Shown piece by piece: positions 22,525 through 27,707 of a stretch of 27,912 nucleotides of DNA. This DNA comes from a virus. The DNA is taken from positions 1-27,912 of the IMG/VR virus record IMGVR_UViG_3300032284_000714. The stretch is one strand, 5' to 3'. Numbering within the stretch: position 1 is the first letter of the stretch; each line of letters opens with the position of its first letter. Made by a program: the position numbers and the translations under genes. The notes beneath the pieces were generated by a model. The model searched no databases. It was not told the DNA's origin and was given only the letters and a program-made list of their open reading frames with translations.

Positions 22525-22882
22525 TCAACTCATGAAGAGTGATGAGAAAACCTTTACTTGGGTTTGGCTCTTTCTTATTTTCAATTGCTCTGCCATGTTT
22601 TTCAACCGTCTTGCGAAGAATATCTATTGTAACAATAACAACAAGAGTTTCAAGTACAAATGCCCAATGGTCAGCCTTGGTCTTGTTTAAGCCAGAAGGT
22701 ATCCACTTATGTGTAGAACGTGAATAAAACTCAGTTTCTATATAAATGTTGCCTGTCTCAATCCAACGCCTGTCGCGCTTGACTTCAACTGTTAAACCAC
22801 CAGTCAGGATGTCTCGGACTAACTGCTCACCCTCATGCCCGTAAGCAAAGTCTAAGTCAAAGTCTGATAAGTCTCTAGTCAT
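22502..22882 (-). CDS. PD-(D/E)XK-like nuclease (126 aa)
   Basis: The N-terminal half fits a minimal PD-(D/E)XK core: Glu19 in GHEGEQLVRDIL, then TVEVKRDRRW with EVK at 33-35, and GNIYIETEF with Glu49. It is followed by SGLNKTKADHWAFVLETLVV, a pattern I associate with phage and archaeal resolvase-like nucleases. The C-terminal half is a helical and basic region (ILRKTVEKHGRAIENKK). It may process recombination or replication intermediates. There are two further nuclease-like genes in the operon, so redundancy or specialisation is possible. 4-base overlap with the peptidase gene upstream. Confidence 0.62.
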   Translation of the reverse strand: MTRDLSDFDLDFAYGHEGEQLVRDILTGGLTVEVKRDRRWIETGNIYIETEFYSRSTHKWIPSGLNKTKADHWAFVLETLVVIVTIDILRKTVEKHGRAIENKKEPNPSKGFLITLHELIAVQRGA

Positions 22883-23448
22883 TTAGATTCCTGTACTAAA
22901 GATACAGTTATCTTACCGCCAGTGTATGCGTCATATTTACTAGCAATTTGAATTGCCTTTGTAATAATCTTGCGTGCCTTAACTGAGTCATCAATCAATG
23001 CACCATTAGATAGGGCAGCCATTGCACCAAGAGCAAACTTCTCACCACTGCCAGCCACATACATGTTGTCGGCTGAACGCTCCCACGAGTAGTCCTCGTT
23101 GATACGATAGAGGTTACCTTTGGCTACCACCAAGATAATGTTGTCTTGTTCAACAGCACCCTCTTTCGCAAACTCATAGCCACCATCAGCAAACGCCTTG
23201 CGAATGGAAGGTATGAGTTGGCGAGTAATGTATTTGTCTATGTCCTTGCCGTTGATTTGTGGCGGGATAAAGTCATGCTCAAGAATGTTAATGCCACGCA
23301 CTGACCCAGCCATAGCAAAGACAATGTTATTGTTCTTAAATATCTTGCCGTTGGGAATCATGATGGCAAAGCCATCCTCATCAGAAGACTGCGAGTCTGC
23401 CCCAATCATTACCCAATCAGGACCTTGGATGGCAGCAATAGTTGTCAT
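22879..23448 (-). CDS. HslV / proteasome-beta-like Thr-peptidase (189 aa)
   Basis: The N-terminus MTTIAAIQGPDWVMIGADSQ is that of an Ntn-hydrolase: after removal of Met1, Thr2 would be the nucleophile, and Asp18 falls at position 17 of the mature chain, as in HslV. NGKIFK (33-38) supplies the Lys near position 33, AMAGS (45-49) the glycine turn, and YVAGSGEKFALGAMAAL (about 129-145) the GSG segment with the active-site Ser. The end (KAIQIASKYDAYTGGKITVS) resembles the family's C-terminus. Size fits HslV (about 175). No HslU-like ATPase is in the window. It may assemble as rings and use a host unfoldase, or act on its own. Located between primase and nuclease genes. Confidence 0.8.
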   Translation of the reverse strand: MTTIAAIQGPDWVMIGADSQSSDEDGFAIMIPNGKIFKNNNIVFAMAGSVRGINILEHDFIPPQINGKDIDKYITRQLIPSIRKAFADGGYEFAKEGAVEQDNIILVVAKGNLYRINEDYSWERSADNMYVAGSGEKFALGAMAALSNGALIDDSVKARKIITKAIQIASKYDAYTGGKITVSLVQESK

Positions 23449-23451
23449 GTC

Positions 23452-24087
23452 TTAAGCCACCAAGCGCTCATCAAACCAGTCTTTACCATGCCTTAAGTAT
23501 ACATCATTGACGTCCGTATTGTCTGGTAAGTGTATTATGTCCGCTTTTTCTAAATCTTCTTTGATACGTTTGGCAAGTTCTTGGCCAGGATTTCGTCCAT
23601 CTTCCTTGACATCATTGTCTGCGAAAACGAGGATACGGCTGTAGGATTCAAAAAGTTGAGGGAACCAGGGCTTCCATTGAGAAACGCCAGCAACTCCCAC
23701 CGCAGGTATGCCGACCATGCCCGAGAGAACAACGGTGTCAATCTCTCCTTCGCAAATGGCAATCGTGTCACTTGGCTTATGCAAATCAACCACATTAAAT
23801 AAGCCAACCTTTTGGCCTGTAGGCCATAGAAATCTAGGCGTACCATCATCTAACCTCCTGAACTTAAGACCGACTACACCCGCTGGTGTGCGGTATGGAA
23901 TGGATAACATGCCTGTTGCTAATTCGTGTCCCGCTGCGGGGTCAACCACGCTTCCAAGAAGGAACGTACTTGCGACTTCCTCCGTTACTCCTCGTCCCTG
24001 TAGGTAAGAGAGAGCCTGTGGTGTTAGATTTTTGGAGTATCTTTCGGCTGCGTCCGTTAGCAATTGTCTCTGCTTTTCGTTTAGCAT
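23452..24087 (-). CDS. DNA primase TOPRIM domain protein (211 aa)
   Basis: The TOPRIM motifs are clear: CEGEIDTVVLSG with Glu113/Glu115 (112-123), then VFADNDVKEDGRNPGQEL with DND at 157-159, the metal-binding acids for primer synthesis. The N-terminal part (AERYSKNLTPQALSYLQGRG, IPYRTPAGVVGLKFRRLDDG) matches the region preceding TOPRIM in DnaG/phage primases. The zinc-finger domain expected in front is encoded by the upstream gene, which overlaps by 146 bases in another frame. So the primase is split in two. The start at ATG 24087 has no upstream SD that I can see, so expression may depend on reinitiation or a frameshift. Confidence 0.82.
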   Translation of the reverse strand: MLNEKQRQLLTDAAERYSKNLTPQALSYLQGRGVTEEVASTFLLGSVVDPAAGHELATGMLSIPYRTPAGVVGLKFRRLDDGTPRFLWPTGQKVGLFNVVDLHKPSDTIAICEGEIDTVVLSGMVGIPAVGVAGVSQWKPWFPQLFESYSRILVFADNDVKEDGRNPGQELAKRIKEDLEKADIIHLPDNTDVNDVYLRHGKDWFDERLVA

Positions 24088-24304
24088 GTTGAAAATCCAA
24101 CCCTTCTTTTGCTGCTACTAGTGTGTACACATCGCCAAGTACTTGACATACTAAGCAATTGTATCCTTGTTCATCTAAATTGTATGCTGCACTACTGTGC
24201 GTGTCTTCGTGTATGACACACTTACACGCTACCCAACCATGCTTGTCAATTATGTTTAAGCCATAATGTTCTAGCACTACTGCAATGTCAGGTTTAGATA
24301 TCAC
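23942..24304 (-). CDS. DNA primase CHC2-type zinc-finger protein (120 aa)
   Basis: Residues 22-82 form a CHC2 primase zinc finger: CVIHEDTHSSAAYNL (Cys29/His32) and YNCLVCQVLGDVYTLVAAKE (Cys50/Cys53), followed by EGLDFQHAKRKAE. This domain recognises template DNA. From about residue 85 onward the product becomes basic and low complexity (RSRKILQKSNTTGSLLPTG), a region that overlaps the TOPRIM gene's N-terminus in another frame. The tail may be incidental, and a +1 or -2 shift near 24087 would fuse the two halves into a standard primase. It overlaps the resolvase-like gene by 11 bases. Confidence 0.8.
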   Translation of the reverse strand: MISKPDIAVVLEHYGLNIIDKHGWVACKCVIHEDTHSSAAYNLDEQGYNCLVCQVLGDVYTLVAAKEGLDFQHAKRKAETIANGRSRKILQKSNTTGSLLPTGTRSNGGSRKYVPSWKRG

Positions 24305-24650
24305 CCTGCACCCTTAGCCATTGTTCTAAATCTTGTATGACCCATGACTGTTCCAAGCCAGCCATACGCCTTTTGACAATGACGTAGGCTGGTGGAACCG
24401 CATCAAGATTTCTAGCCTTGGCATAGTTGGCTGCCTCTAAAGTAGCCTCACGCCAAAACTGTGGCAGGTCCATCTTGATTGTTGCTTTCAGTTCAAAAAC
24501 ATACGGTTGACCTGCGACAATAGCAACGATGTCACCCTCATCATCTTTGCCAGCCAACCGTAATCTCTCTGCGCTTACGCCTTTAGAGCGTAGCCATTTT
24601 AATATGCCCAACTCAAACCCTGCGCCTTTACGTTTATTCGCTGCGCTCAC
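24294..24650 (-). CDS. Holliday-junction-resolvase-like nuclease (118 aa)
   Basis: The core is that of an Hjc/VRR-type PD-(D/E)XK nuclease: GAGFELGILKWLRSKGVSAE with Glu13, DDEGDIVAIV with Asp40, VFELKATIKM with Glu53 and Lys55 (E-x-K). Such enzymes resolve four-way DNA junctions or branched packaging substrates. The basic N-terminus MSAANKRKGAG fits DNA binding. It overlaps the helicase-like gene by 17 bases. The alternative is a different structure-specific nuclease of the same fold. Confidence 0.76.
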   Translation of the reverse strand: MSAANKRKGAGFELGILKWLRSKGVSAERLRLAGKDDEGDIVAIVAGQPYVFELKATIKMDLPQFWREATLEAANYAKARNLDAVPPAYVIVKRRMAGLEQSWVIQDLEQWLRVQGDI

Positions 24651-25476
24651 CGTAGTAACTCCTTACTTCTTCCGAGACTTTCATCTCTCTAAACTCCGAG
24701 TACATGGTCATTCTGCTGGCGTCAGCCCATAAAGTTACATAGTTATTACCACCTGCAGAGTGTTTAGCAAAGCGGTTCTTTACTGCAGCAACCCTGAACT
24801 CACCGTTGTATGGCACAAGGGCAACTGTTAAAATCATTTCAGGCAACTGTGCAATCTTGCCTTGGATAGCCTTACGGCTTGGTGGCAGGTCAGGCCTACC
24901 TTCGTTCTCTGATGTGTGGTGCAGTAGGAATACAGCAGCACCAGTCTCACGTGCTATGTGGTGCATAGCCTTAGCAATCTCTCTTAAGCCAGACCATTCA
25001 TCATGGTGCATAGAGACTACGTTCATAGCGTTGTCAACAATAATCAAGTGTGGGTATTGCCCATAAGCCTCACCGTATGCACGGATAGACAAGTCAACCT
25101 CATCTAGTGTGGGGCTTGGTGTGAAATCAAACTGTAGGAAATCAATACTAGACAACTCGTTAGTATAAAAATCTTTACCGACACCAGTGATAAACGCTTC
25201 TTCAACTGTAGATGTTTGATGTCCAGTAATCATTGCAGCAGCACGGATAGATGTTGTGTATGCATCTGTATCTGCAGAGATGTAGAGGGTTGGTACCTTC
25301 ATTTGCACAGCCATATAAAGAGCAATTAAAGATTTACCAGCGTTAGGTTGACCTGCAATCATGGTCAACTGTCCCCTACGAAACCTTATTCCCTCCTGCT
25401 GCAGAGGAGGGAAAAGGTCAGGTAGTAACTGAAAGTCGTTATTACTCTTTGCTGCTGCTTGGGTGAGCGACAGCAC
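24634..25476 (-). CDS. RecA/DnaB-like ATPase, probable replicative helicase or recombinase loader (280 aa)
   Basis: Walker A is AGQPNAGKS (41-49), Walker B LIIVDN (144-149), with a following HHTSE (186-190) sensor-like segment. The rest (ADTDAYTTSIRAAAMITGHQ; LPPSRKAIQGKIAQLPEMIL) matches the single-domain RecA-fold ATPases of the DnaB/RadA/RepA type. At 280 residues it is shorter than DnaB (about 450), with no DnaB N-terminal domain, consistent with a hexameric RepA-like phage helicase. Neighbouring primase, resolvase and zinc-ribbon proteins support a replication role. It starts 8 bases after the 25485 gene. Confidence 0.84.
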   Translation of the reverse strand: MLSLTQAAAKSNNDFQLLPDLFPPLQQEGIRFRRGQLTMIAGQPNAGKSLIALYMAVQMKVPTLYISADTDAYTTSIRAAAMITGHQTSTVEEAFITGVGKDFYTNELSSIDFLQFDFTPSPTLDEVDLSIRAYGEAYGQYPHLIIVDNAMNVVSMHHDEWSGLREIAKAMHHIARETGAAVFLLHHTSENEGRPDLPPSRKAIQGKIAQLPEMILTVALVPYNGEFRVAAVKNRFAKHSAGGNNYVTLWADASRMTMYSEFREMKVSEEVRSYYGERSE

Positions 25477-25484
25477 GTTCTACC

Positions 25485-25859
25485 TTAGCGGAGGAACTTA
25501 GGAGCGCATTGGTCAGCGGTGCCTTGTGGAGATGGGCAGAACCATCCCTTCCAAGACTTTGCTGCACCTGGCTTTGATTCACGGTAAACCAATTTGCCAT
25601 GCTTACAATGTCCCTCTTCAATAACTGCAGAGGTTGGTGTTGGAGATGAAACAGTAGTTGCGTTAAATGCTTGACGCACTACGTTTGCTGCGCTTGATGC
25701 TCCAAGTGCAGATGATGTTGCGGAGATGAGTGTTGCAGCGTCTTGAAGAGTTGTTAATGAACTCTCCAATTCAGCCTGTGTAGTTGCATAGATGTTGAGC
25801 AAAGTTCCATCAGCCGTCTTGAAGTTGATTTGGAACTTGGTGCTTTCTGATGCTGCCAT
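25485..25859 (-). CDS. Zinc-ribbon protein of the replication operon, possible SSB-like factor (124 aa)
   Basis: The N-terminal half (FQINFKTADGTLLNIYATTQ) is beta-rich, then Ala/Ser/Thr-rich and flexible. The C-terminus holds a zinc site: HCKHGKLVYRESKPGAAKSW followed by GWFCPSPQGTADQCAPKFLR. A 'C..HG...R....W.G.FC....QC.P' tail of this type occurs in several actinophage proteins of unknown function. Position between the nuclease and helicase genes makes a single-stranded-DNA-binding or helicase-accessory role plausible. That is inference only. Confidence 0.68.
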   Translation of the reverse strand: MAASESTKFQINFKTADGTLLNIYATTQAELESSLTTLQDAATLISATSSALGASSAANVVRQAFNATTVSSPTPTSAVIEEGHCKHGKLVYRESKPGAAKSWKGWFCPSPQGTADQCAPKFLR

Positions 25860-25860
25860 G

Positions 25861-26529
25861 TTATTTTCCTTCTTTCGTTATGTTTGCTATTGGGTCAAAG
25901 ATAGGGGCTAACTGTCCACCGACAGCGTAGCAGTATTCCTTTACACCGCATGTACCACATGACATGCCAATGTTAGGTAAAAATATTTCTGCCTTAAGTC
26001 CTCTTTCAAACTGCGCAAAGAGTTCATTAAAAACAGGGATGGTCCAGCGGTCAAGGCCAGGGGCCTCAATGAACTGAGCGTTACGTGCATCGTAATAGTA
26101 ACCCTTAGTTGGGCGTACACCAAACTGCATCTCCATAGCGCAGGCATACAAGCCCAACTGCATAGCAGACTCGGGCATGTAGGCACCTGTCTTAAAGTCA
26201 ATGACTGCCAATTCATTACCACGTGTGGCAACAGCATCAGCAAATGCTTTAATAGGTACATCACCAAAACTATTATTAAATTCTATTTCAATTCCAGGTA
26301 CACCTTGAGGTGATACCCAAATTTCAAAACCTGATTCACTCCATGCGCTGATGAAGTTAAAGAACATCTCCTTACCAGCGGTGTCCCACCAAGCCTTGTC
26401 TTCCTTGTTAGGCTTTAACTTGGAACTGCGTCCACCGATACGCCAGTCAACTGGATTAGACCCAGCCTTTTGTTCTGTCTCGGCTATCTGCTCTAAGAAA
26501 GACTCATCCCAAATTGTGTCCCATGTCAT
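25861..26529 (-). CDS. Cas4/RecB-like nuclease, C-terminal part (222 aa)
   Basis: This carries the second half of a PD-(D/E)XK nuclease. AFADAV has Asp98, AVIDFKTG has Asp111 and Lys113 (motifs II/III), AMQLGLYACAM has Gln124 and Tyr128 (motif IV). A C-terminal iron-sulfur triad follows, Cys191, Cys194 and Cys200 (CGTCGVKEYC). The first half, with His48 and the fourth Cys, is on the separate gene at 26934-27149. Joined, the two give about 293 residues, a normal Cas4-family phage exonuclease. The start overlaps the gene upstream by 4 bases. It probably resects DNA ends during replication or recombination. Confidence 0.78.
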   Translation of the reverse strand: MTWDTIWDESFLEQIAETEQKAGSNPVDWRIGGRSSKLKPNKEDKAWWDTAGKEMFFNFISAWSESGFEIWVSPQGVPGIEIEFNNSFGDVPIKAFADAVATRGNELAVIDFKTGAYMPESAMQLGLYACAMEMQFGVRPTKGYYYDARNAQFIEAPGLDRWTIPVFNELFAQFERGLKAEIFLPNIGMSCGTCGVKEYCYAVGGQLAPIFDPIANITKEGK

Positions 26530-26717
26530 TTTTCTTCCAACTTCCCGTAAACAATTTCTTGTGCTTTCTTCAAGCCTACAATTGTAGCAGGGTTGGTTTC
26601 TTTCTTAATCTCTTCTTGAATAAGCAATGCTAAGTTACGGCGCATAATCATTTCGCCCTCAACAAATGCTTTTTCAAATGCAGTTTTGCTGATAATACGT
26701 GCGTGCTTCTTACCCAT
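26526..26717 (-). CDS. Small helical protein inserted in the nuclease locus (63 aa)
   Basis: It begins MGKKHARIISKTAFEKAFVE and is wholly helical and charged (RRNLALLIQEEIKKETNPA, VGLKKAQEIVYGKLEEK). I chose ATG 26717, which overlaps the upstream stop (TAATG); an upstream TTG at 26729 is a weaker alternative. It overlaps the nuclease C-terminal gene by 4 bases. One of two small genes lying between the two nuclease parts. Function unknown. Confidence 0.62.
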   Translation of the reverse strand: MGKKHARIISKTAFEKAFVEGEMIMRRNLALLIQEEIKKETNPATIVGLKKAQEIVYGKLEEK

Positions 26718-26932
26718 TAGTAGTCCCAATCTGGTACTGGTGCGACTGCAAGGCTACCACAGAGCGCACAACGCATGTCAAGGAAGTAAAGTCCGATTTC
26801 TCCGTCATCGTCAAACTTACACTTGACGTCCCAGATATCACTGTCACAGGGACAGATTCTAATTGGGCCAAGAGAGCGATAGTCTCCCTCAGTTCCTGAC
26901 GTTGGGCGTAGGTTGGCAATGTCTTCAGCCAT
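26717..26932 (-). CDS. Small zinc-ribbon-like protein inserted in the nuclease locus (71 aa)
   Basis: MAEDIANLRPTSGTEGDYRS leads into RICPCDSDIWDVKCKFDDDG and MRCALCGSLAVAP. The Cys residues (CPC, CKF, CALC) suggest a zinc ribbon. It is acidic overall. It starts one base after the stop of the N-terminal nuclease gene, and its stop overlaps the next start. Not recognised. Its being sandwiched between the nuclease halves may indicate an accessory factor or a passenger insertion. Confidence 0.64.
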   Translation of the reverse strand: MAEDIANLRPTSGTEGDYRSLGPIRICPCDSDIWDVKCKFDDDGEIGLYFLDMRCALCGSLAVAPVPDWDY

Positions 26933-26933
26933 A

Positions 26934-27149
26934 TCAAAATGGTGGCTTATCTAGTGGGATGCGTGCGTTTTCAAATTGTTGTAGAAGATACTTCTCTGCA
27001 GCGCGGTGAAACGCTGAACCTCCAACGAACCACCATGCAGGTTCGGTAGGTGCTTGAAGTTGACGTTCCAATTGCCATGCTTTACCGCAGCGAAGCCACG
27101 ATGTGAATGATGAAAAACTTCTGTGTGCTATTTGCGTTTCTTTTTTCAT
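26934..27149 (-). CDS. Cas4/RecB-like nuclease, N-terminal part (71 aa)
   Basis: HRSFSSFTSWLRCGKAWQLE is the N-terminal signature of Cas4/AddB-type nucleases, and Cys21 is in the place of the first Fe-S cysteine. GGSAFHRAAEKYL (43-55) provides motif I with His48 and Glu52. The C-terminal DKPPF runs straight to a stop. I chose ATG 27149 (MKKETQIAHR), because the extra 21 residues of a longer reading from 27212 are Cys/Trp-rich and unlike the family. No clear ribosome site precedes this ATG, but TACAGT lies 6 bases upstream, suggesting a leaderless transcript. First gene of the leftward replication operon. Confidence 0.74.
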   Translation of the reverse strand: MKKETQIAHRSFSSFTSWLRCGKAWQLERQLQAPTEPAWWFVGGSAFHRAAEKYLLQQFENARIPLDKPPF

Positions 27150-27365: not shown

Positions 27366-27707
27366 ATGGATAAACCTCACCATAGGTTACTTCTTAAACA
27401 CTCTGCCACACGCACAGGCATCTGTTCGGTGTGTGGACCGACTCGCCTTAAAAAGAAACAAAGTGGTTGGGCTTGTCGCACTAGATACAACGAGTATCGC
27501 TCACGTCATTCTAAAATTAAAAAACCTCATTGTGAAATTTGTGGGTTTGTTGCTGAACATAGAAGTCAATTGGATGTTGACCATGTGGACGGTAACCATG
27601 ACAACAATGACCCGTCTAACTTGCAGACTTTGTGTGCCAATTGTCATCGTCTTAAGACACAAAAAAATAAAGATTGGGAAAACAAAAAAAACCCCCCACC
27701 GAATTAA
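27366..27707 (+). CDS. HNH endonuclease (113 aa)
   Basis: The C-terminal half has the HNH fold: a zinc pair CEIC (about 55-58), DVDHVDGNHDNNDPSNLQTL with the catalytic His, and LCANCHRLKTQKNKDWENKK with CANCH completing the second zinc pair. The N-terminal region also has a CSVCGPTRLKKKQSGWACR stretch (a possible further zinc knuckle). Free-standing HNH genes in phages may be homing endonucleases, nicking enzymes or packaging helpers. The gene is alone on the plus strand, leaderless, and its stop lies inside the following terminator. Confidence 0.84.
   Translation: MDKPHHRLLLKHSATRTGICSVCGPTRLKKKQSGWACRTRYNEYRSRHSKIKKPHCEICGFVAEHRSQLDVDHVDGNHDNNDPSNLQTLCANCHRLKTQKNKDWENKKNPPPN

Follow-up and report, generated by a model that had tools for sequence, protein, structure and literature searches.

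A predicted Cas4/AddB-type nuclease divided between two phage genes, with its four-cysteine metal site shared between the two products

Cas4 (Sso0001, type I-C Cas4) and the nuclease domains of AddB and AdnA are single-chain enzymes with a PD-(D/E)XK core and four cysteines that bind a cluster (PMC3466216, PMC5704561), and in Cas4 and AddB one N-terminal and three C-terminal cysteines hold this nuclease-stabilising cluster (PMC3466216). Cas4-like exonucleases are already known from phages (PMC5704561), and those termed 'Cas4 family exonuclease' (PF12705; PHROG 1870/69) in Mycobacterium, Rhodococcus, Gordonia, Cutibacterium and Thermobifida phages are encoded beside a DnaB-like helicase, in Thermobifida phage P318 also with a Holliday-junction resolvase. 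Split phage enzymes are known as well, i.e. NrdA of Aeromonas phage Aeh1, which is reported to be functional, and NrdJ of Thermus phage phiYS40 (PMC3653736). Here we describe a phage locus in which two genes, designated N and C, together carry the core, the motifs and the one-plus-three cysteine pattern of these nucleases with a predicted metal site. They share the operon position of the actinophage exonucleases, with the gene order seen in P318, and have a similar length (71 + 222 aa versus 269-314 aa of the fused enzymes); whereas the latter are one continuous polypeptide (11 annotated loci) and Cas4, AddB and AdnA are single chains, the pair would form two chains from two genes that are frequently separated by others. 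Like Aeh1 NrdA and phiYS40 NrdJ, the N/C pair would be one enzyme from two genes; however, Aeh1 NrdA is split by a homing endonuclease while the N/C break holds no homing gene, and unlike both, the N/C split is common to a large family and would divide a metal site between chains.

The window, i.e. the whole stretch of DNA analysed here (27,912 nucleotides), is a 27.9-kb viral contig that encodes a WhiB regulator, a sigma factor and a glycosyltransferase. All three have been described for a phage family that includes isolates infecting Ca. Planktophila (PMC10202952), and because this trio matches that family, an aquatic actinobacterium is the likely host. On the minus strand, transcription runs through N, two small genes (Z and K), C, a 124-aa gene, a DnaB-like helicase, a Holliday-junction resolvase-like gene and a two-ORF primase, and the features up to the resolvase-like gene are as follows:

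26934..27149, minus strand: N subunit gene (71 aa), predicted to encode the initial helices of a Cas4/AddB-type nuclease, including Cys21 and His48
26717..26932, minus strand: inserted gene Z (71 aa), whose small product has paired cysteines and by eye resembles a zinc ribbon
26526..26717, minus strand: inserted gene K (63 aa), predicted helical
25861..26529, minus strand: C subunit gene (222 aa), predicted PD-(D/E)XK core with Asp98, Asp111, Lys113, Gln124, Tyr128 and Cys191/194/200
25485..25859, minus strand: neighbour gene (124 aa), weakly related to mycobacteriophage L5/D29 gp49 (PF25690 E 5e-5, below cut-off)
24634..25476, minus strand: DnaB-like replicative helicase (280 aa; PHROG 243 E 9.9e-69)
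24294..24650, minus strand: Holliday-junction resolvase-like protein (118 aa; PHROG 244 E 5e-20)

The 124-aa gene, the helicase and the resolvase-like gene are replication/recombination operon neighbours of C. No CRISPR gene was seen near the nuclease among the selected window genes scanned (no cas1/cas2), its neighbours being phage replication genes, and the isolated host of related phages lacks CRISPR-Cas (PMC10202952). The two small genes between N and C, which the initial annotation had described as joined by neat start/stop overlaps, are indeed so arranged: the N stop is separated by 1 nt from the Z ATG, Z and K share TAATG, and K and C share ATGA, in which the K stop overlaps the C ATG. 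Neither Z nor K matched a Pfam or PHROG family, and Z had no match among annotated phages, yet both are conserved ORFs of small families that accompany the split nuclease. Elsewhere in the window, the DnaG-type primase likewise consists of two overlapping ORFs in different frames (23452-24304), with the CHC2 zinc-finger part at 23942-24304 and the Toprim part at 23452-24087; positions 22879-23448 encode a phage relative of the proteasome/HslV peptidase family (PHROG 1040 E 2.4e-32; PF00227 E 3e-7); and a free-standing HNH endonuclease gene (27366-27707, plus strand) lies just upstream of the operon, divergent from N.

The initial annotation had read N as the family N-terminus and C as the later motifs with a CxxC-x5-C triad, together one Cas4-type enzyme of normal combined size, and the searches bear this out. 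The N product carries SFSSFTSWLRCGKAWQLER, Cys21 and GGSAFH(48), while the C product carries Asp98 (FADAV), Asp111-x-Lys113 (VIDFKTG), QLGLY and C191-x2-C194-x5-C200. N matched PF12705 over positions 3-52, below the 22-bit cut-off (E 0.003, 17.8 bits), and the 'exonuclease' families PHROG 69/1870/31737 with a best E of 3.9e-12 (PHROG 69); C matched PF12705 above the cut-off (positions 83-246, E 1.3e-10) and PHROG 1870 at E 3.6e-32 (positions 77-297). PHROG 1870, a profile of the uninterrupted phage exonuclease, was tiled by the two products in the right order (N 14-71, C 77-297), the hits lying only about five profile positions apart. The proposed search for fused relatives recovered such forms, and in an alignment with four fused actinophage enzymes, from Cutibacterium, Thermobifida and Rhodococcus phages, both parts aligned end to end with the uninterrupted enzyme and no segment was missing at the N/C junction, the combined 293 aa equalling the size of the fused relatives. 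The Cas4 profile PF01930 was not reached (15.6 bits versus the 22.7 cut-off), and PDB sequence searches returned only distant helicase-nucleases and Cas4. A complete stand-alone relative of N or of C, which had been named as evidence against a shared enzyme, did not turn up, and no relative could be confirmed when bacterial genomes were scanned with the N profile. By sequence, N (71 aa) and C (222 aa) represent the two ends of a single Cas4/AddB-type PD-(D/E)XK nuclease.

Relatives were collected by scans with C, with N and with the fused enzymes, which yielded 238 split and 23 fused loci, the latter belonging to other phage groups; several contigs are present twice among the 238, so that the relevant number is 175 distinct N/C pairs. 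These pairs form three clades (the window type, the LanE43 type represented by L058, and the L054 type), within which no fused member was found. LanE43-AprE7 and -F5, two cultivated lytic phages that infect Ca. Planktophila (PMC10202952), also have the split form; their records carry no annotation, and their complete genomes contain no PF12705 copy other than N and C. One contig (L126 in G008, 45,547 b) holds two different split N/C copies near its two ends (1708-2437 and 41003-41729). A quick tree needed two state changes, with the long-branched Cutibacterium fused proteins falling among the split clades; constraining the split rows to one clade raised the likelihood (p-AU 0.55), and a single origin of the split is compatible with the tree, being neither rejected nor proven. 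An assembly or sequencing frameshift was ruled out by recurrence of the split in independent contigs and in isolate genomes. The split is thus general, old and maintained.

The two genes travel together. Among 80 loci with the N gene, C lies downstream in 77 and the remaining three stop at a contig edge, while all nine loci with C only start at contig edges, so N and C appear to be obligate partners; their being kept together in 175 distinct pairs is more than chance. The division of the cysteines, one in N and three in C, which the initial annotation had pointed out, proved invariant in the split family: Cys21 is present in 172/172 pairs with a complete N gene, the three pairs without it being cut by contig ends, and His48, Asp98, Asp111, Lys113, Gln124, Tyr128 and Cys191/194/200, counted over both proteins, in 175/175. 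Median dN/dS was 0.07 for N and 0.11 for C (1,470 pairs at moderate synonymous divergence), rough values given that N synonymous divergence is often near saturation, and both genes are under purifying selection. That C works as a nuclease alone with N as a distinct partner or regulator would accord with the catalytic Asp/Asp/Lys core lying on C and with N being a small separate product. However, N retains exactly the residues that the nuclease needs (Cys21, His48), always occurs with C, and is constrained at least as strongly as C, which makes such a division of labour improbable.

The layout of the junction argues for N and C being made as two separate polypeptides, given the overlap and insert arrangements, the varying frame offset and the lack of an intron or intein signature. 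In 73 pairs there is no insert and the end of N overlaps the start of C by a few bases, the form of the overlap differing by clade, from ATGA in the L054 type to up to 17 nt in the LanE43 type. In the other 102 pairs, 145-955 bp of other genes lie between the halves and both halves are still conserved; such repeated insertion at a single point, with neither half lost, is the pattern expected of independent genes. Across the 175 pairs the inserts show stages, with nothing in the break in 73, Z only in 8, K only in 1, Z + K in 83 and unrelated gene families in 10, so that Z is found in 91/102 and K in 84/102 of the insert-bearing pairs; the unrelated inserts include a ∼110-aa protein (L100/L128/L134), a 114-aa protein (L147-L150), a 50-aa ORF (L152) and a 72-aa ORF (L157/L160). 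In addition, a Shine-Dalgarno-like motif precedes C's own start in 113/175 pairs, versus 19% at random positions. The 73 overlaps, being in different frames, could by their layout permit programmed ribosomal frameshifting across the N/C ends to give one polypeptide, with the insert-bearing loci as decayed versions. But the offset varies between clades (+1 in 64 pairs, +2/-1 in 9), inspection of the junctions by eye showed no common slippery sequence, and the halves stay conserved in the 102 pairs with inserts, including the window phage, where they lie 404 nt apart in different frames; frameshifting is accordingly very unlikely.

The initial annotation had left a functional heterodimer, a spliced gene and decay side by side, and of these the latter two did not stand. 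Splicing of the two parts by an intron or intein has a precedent in this family, a known target of such elements: in Mycobacterium phage Traft412 (L281 1228-3042), the fused Cas4 exonuclease is 604 aa long and bears a LAGLIDADG-containing insert, probably an intein, in its nuclease core. The HNH gene is also close by, but it is divergent and lies outside the split; no Rfam intron was matched in the window or in 15 split loci, neither half has intein residues beyond the nuclease, which speaks against protein trans-splicing as well, and the inserts are unrelated small ORFs that 73 pairs do without, so that splicing is without support and marginally less credible still than frameshifting. Split genes in phages are at times remnants, but decay into two functionless pieces is excluded by the dN/dS of ∼0.07 and 0.11, by the persistence of the split with invariant catalytic and metal residues in 175 pairs, and by its presence in two isolated lytic phages with no other copy.

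A structural model was obtained for L009, a close relative of the window locus in which the N and C genes share a frame, so that reading through the stops gives N, 136 disordered residues and C; the N/C alignment (A6) was likewise built from natural read-through frames. In this AlphaFold model, one chain with an artificial linker for which about 16 alignment rows cover N, the N and C parts were confident and the linker disordered. Superposed on AdnA (789-1039), the model reached Z 15.1 with 227 residues aligned (rmsd 3.9), and it also matched ACE1 (Z 14.6), AddB (Z 14.2) and Cas4 (Z 11.8). Since 227 aligned residues exceed the at most 203 aligned residues of C, N residues are part of the AdnA fit; docking of N on C in the manner of the single-chain enzyme gains support from this, though not proof; alternatively, AlphaFold may have rebuilt a known single-chain fold. 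The fused relative L261 was modelled well (pLDDT 85), and on it the split point falls in loop 52-57, between helices 34-51 and 58-79.

Taken together, we consider it probable (roughly 0.85) that in the window phage two obligate subunits make up a single Cas4/AddB-type PD-(D/E)XK nuclease, joining into the fold of the fused enzymes with a four-cysteine metal site across the chains. The N gene would give the first three helices, the active-site His48 and one metal-ligand cysteine (Cys21), and the C gene would give everything from helix 4 on, including the catalytic Asp98/Asp111/Lys113 and three further cysteines. In the uninterrupted enzyme a loop connects helices 3 and 4, and it is to this loop that the chain break corresponds. 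The subunits would be translated separately from a single operon and adopt the fold of the fused relatives on assembly, and the four-cysteine site would staple both chains together. Clusters between subunits are known in other enzymes, e.g. nitrogenase. The physical assembly, the metal, the activity and the role are what we infer from sequence, model and gene context. The metal is probably a 4Fe-4S cluster and possibly zinc; cysteine conservation does not tell these apart, as the four-cysteine enzyme 3L0A binds zinc (PMC3466216). Since the fused relatives are likewise placed next to a DnaB-like helicase in their operons, the nuclease probably serves in end resection or DNA end processing during phage recombination and replication, together with the adjacent DnaB-like helicase and Holliday-junction resolvase. 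More speculatively, and in our estimation doubtful, the metal site may act as an assembly switch, in which iron supply or oxidation joins or releases the N subunit and so turns the nuclease on or off.

Searches of the open-access literature turned up no description of a split Cas4/AddB-type nuclease, and a survey of the Cas4 family (PMC5704561) does not mention such a form; a predicted Fe-S 'staple' nuclease divided between two genes thus appears not to have been described previously. In the annotation of abundant aquatic phages the enzyme is missed, because its N part resembles an unremarkable ORF of 60-76 aa. As a natural split of a Cas4/AddB-type enzyme, the predicted pair offers a break point tested by evolution, with many variants that carry foreign genes at the break. 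The purpose of the cluster in this family is debated, and should the metal be required for N and C to assemble, the role of the cluster as a structural staple would become measurable as subunit binding.
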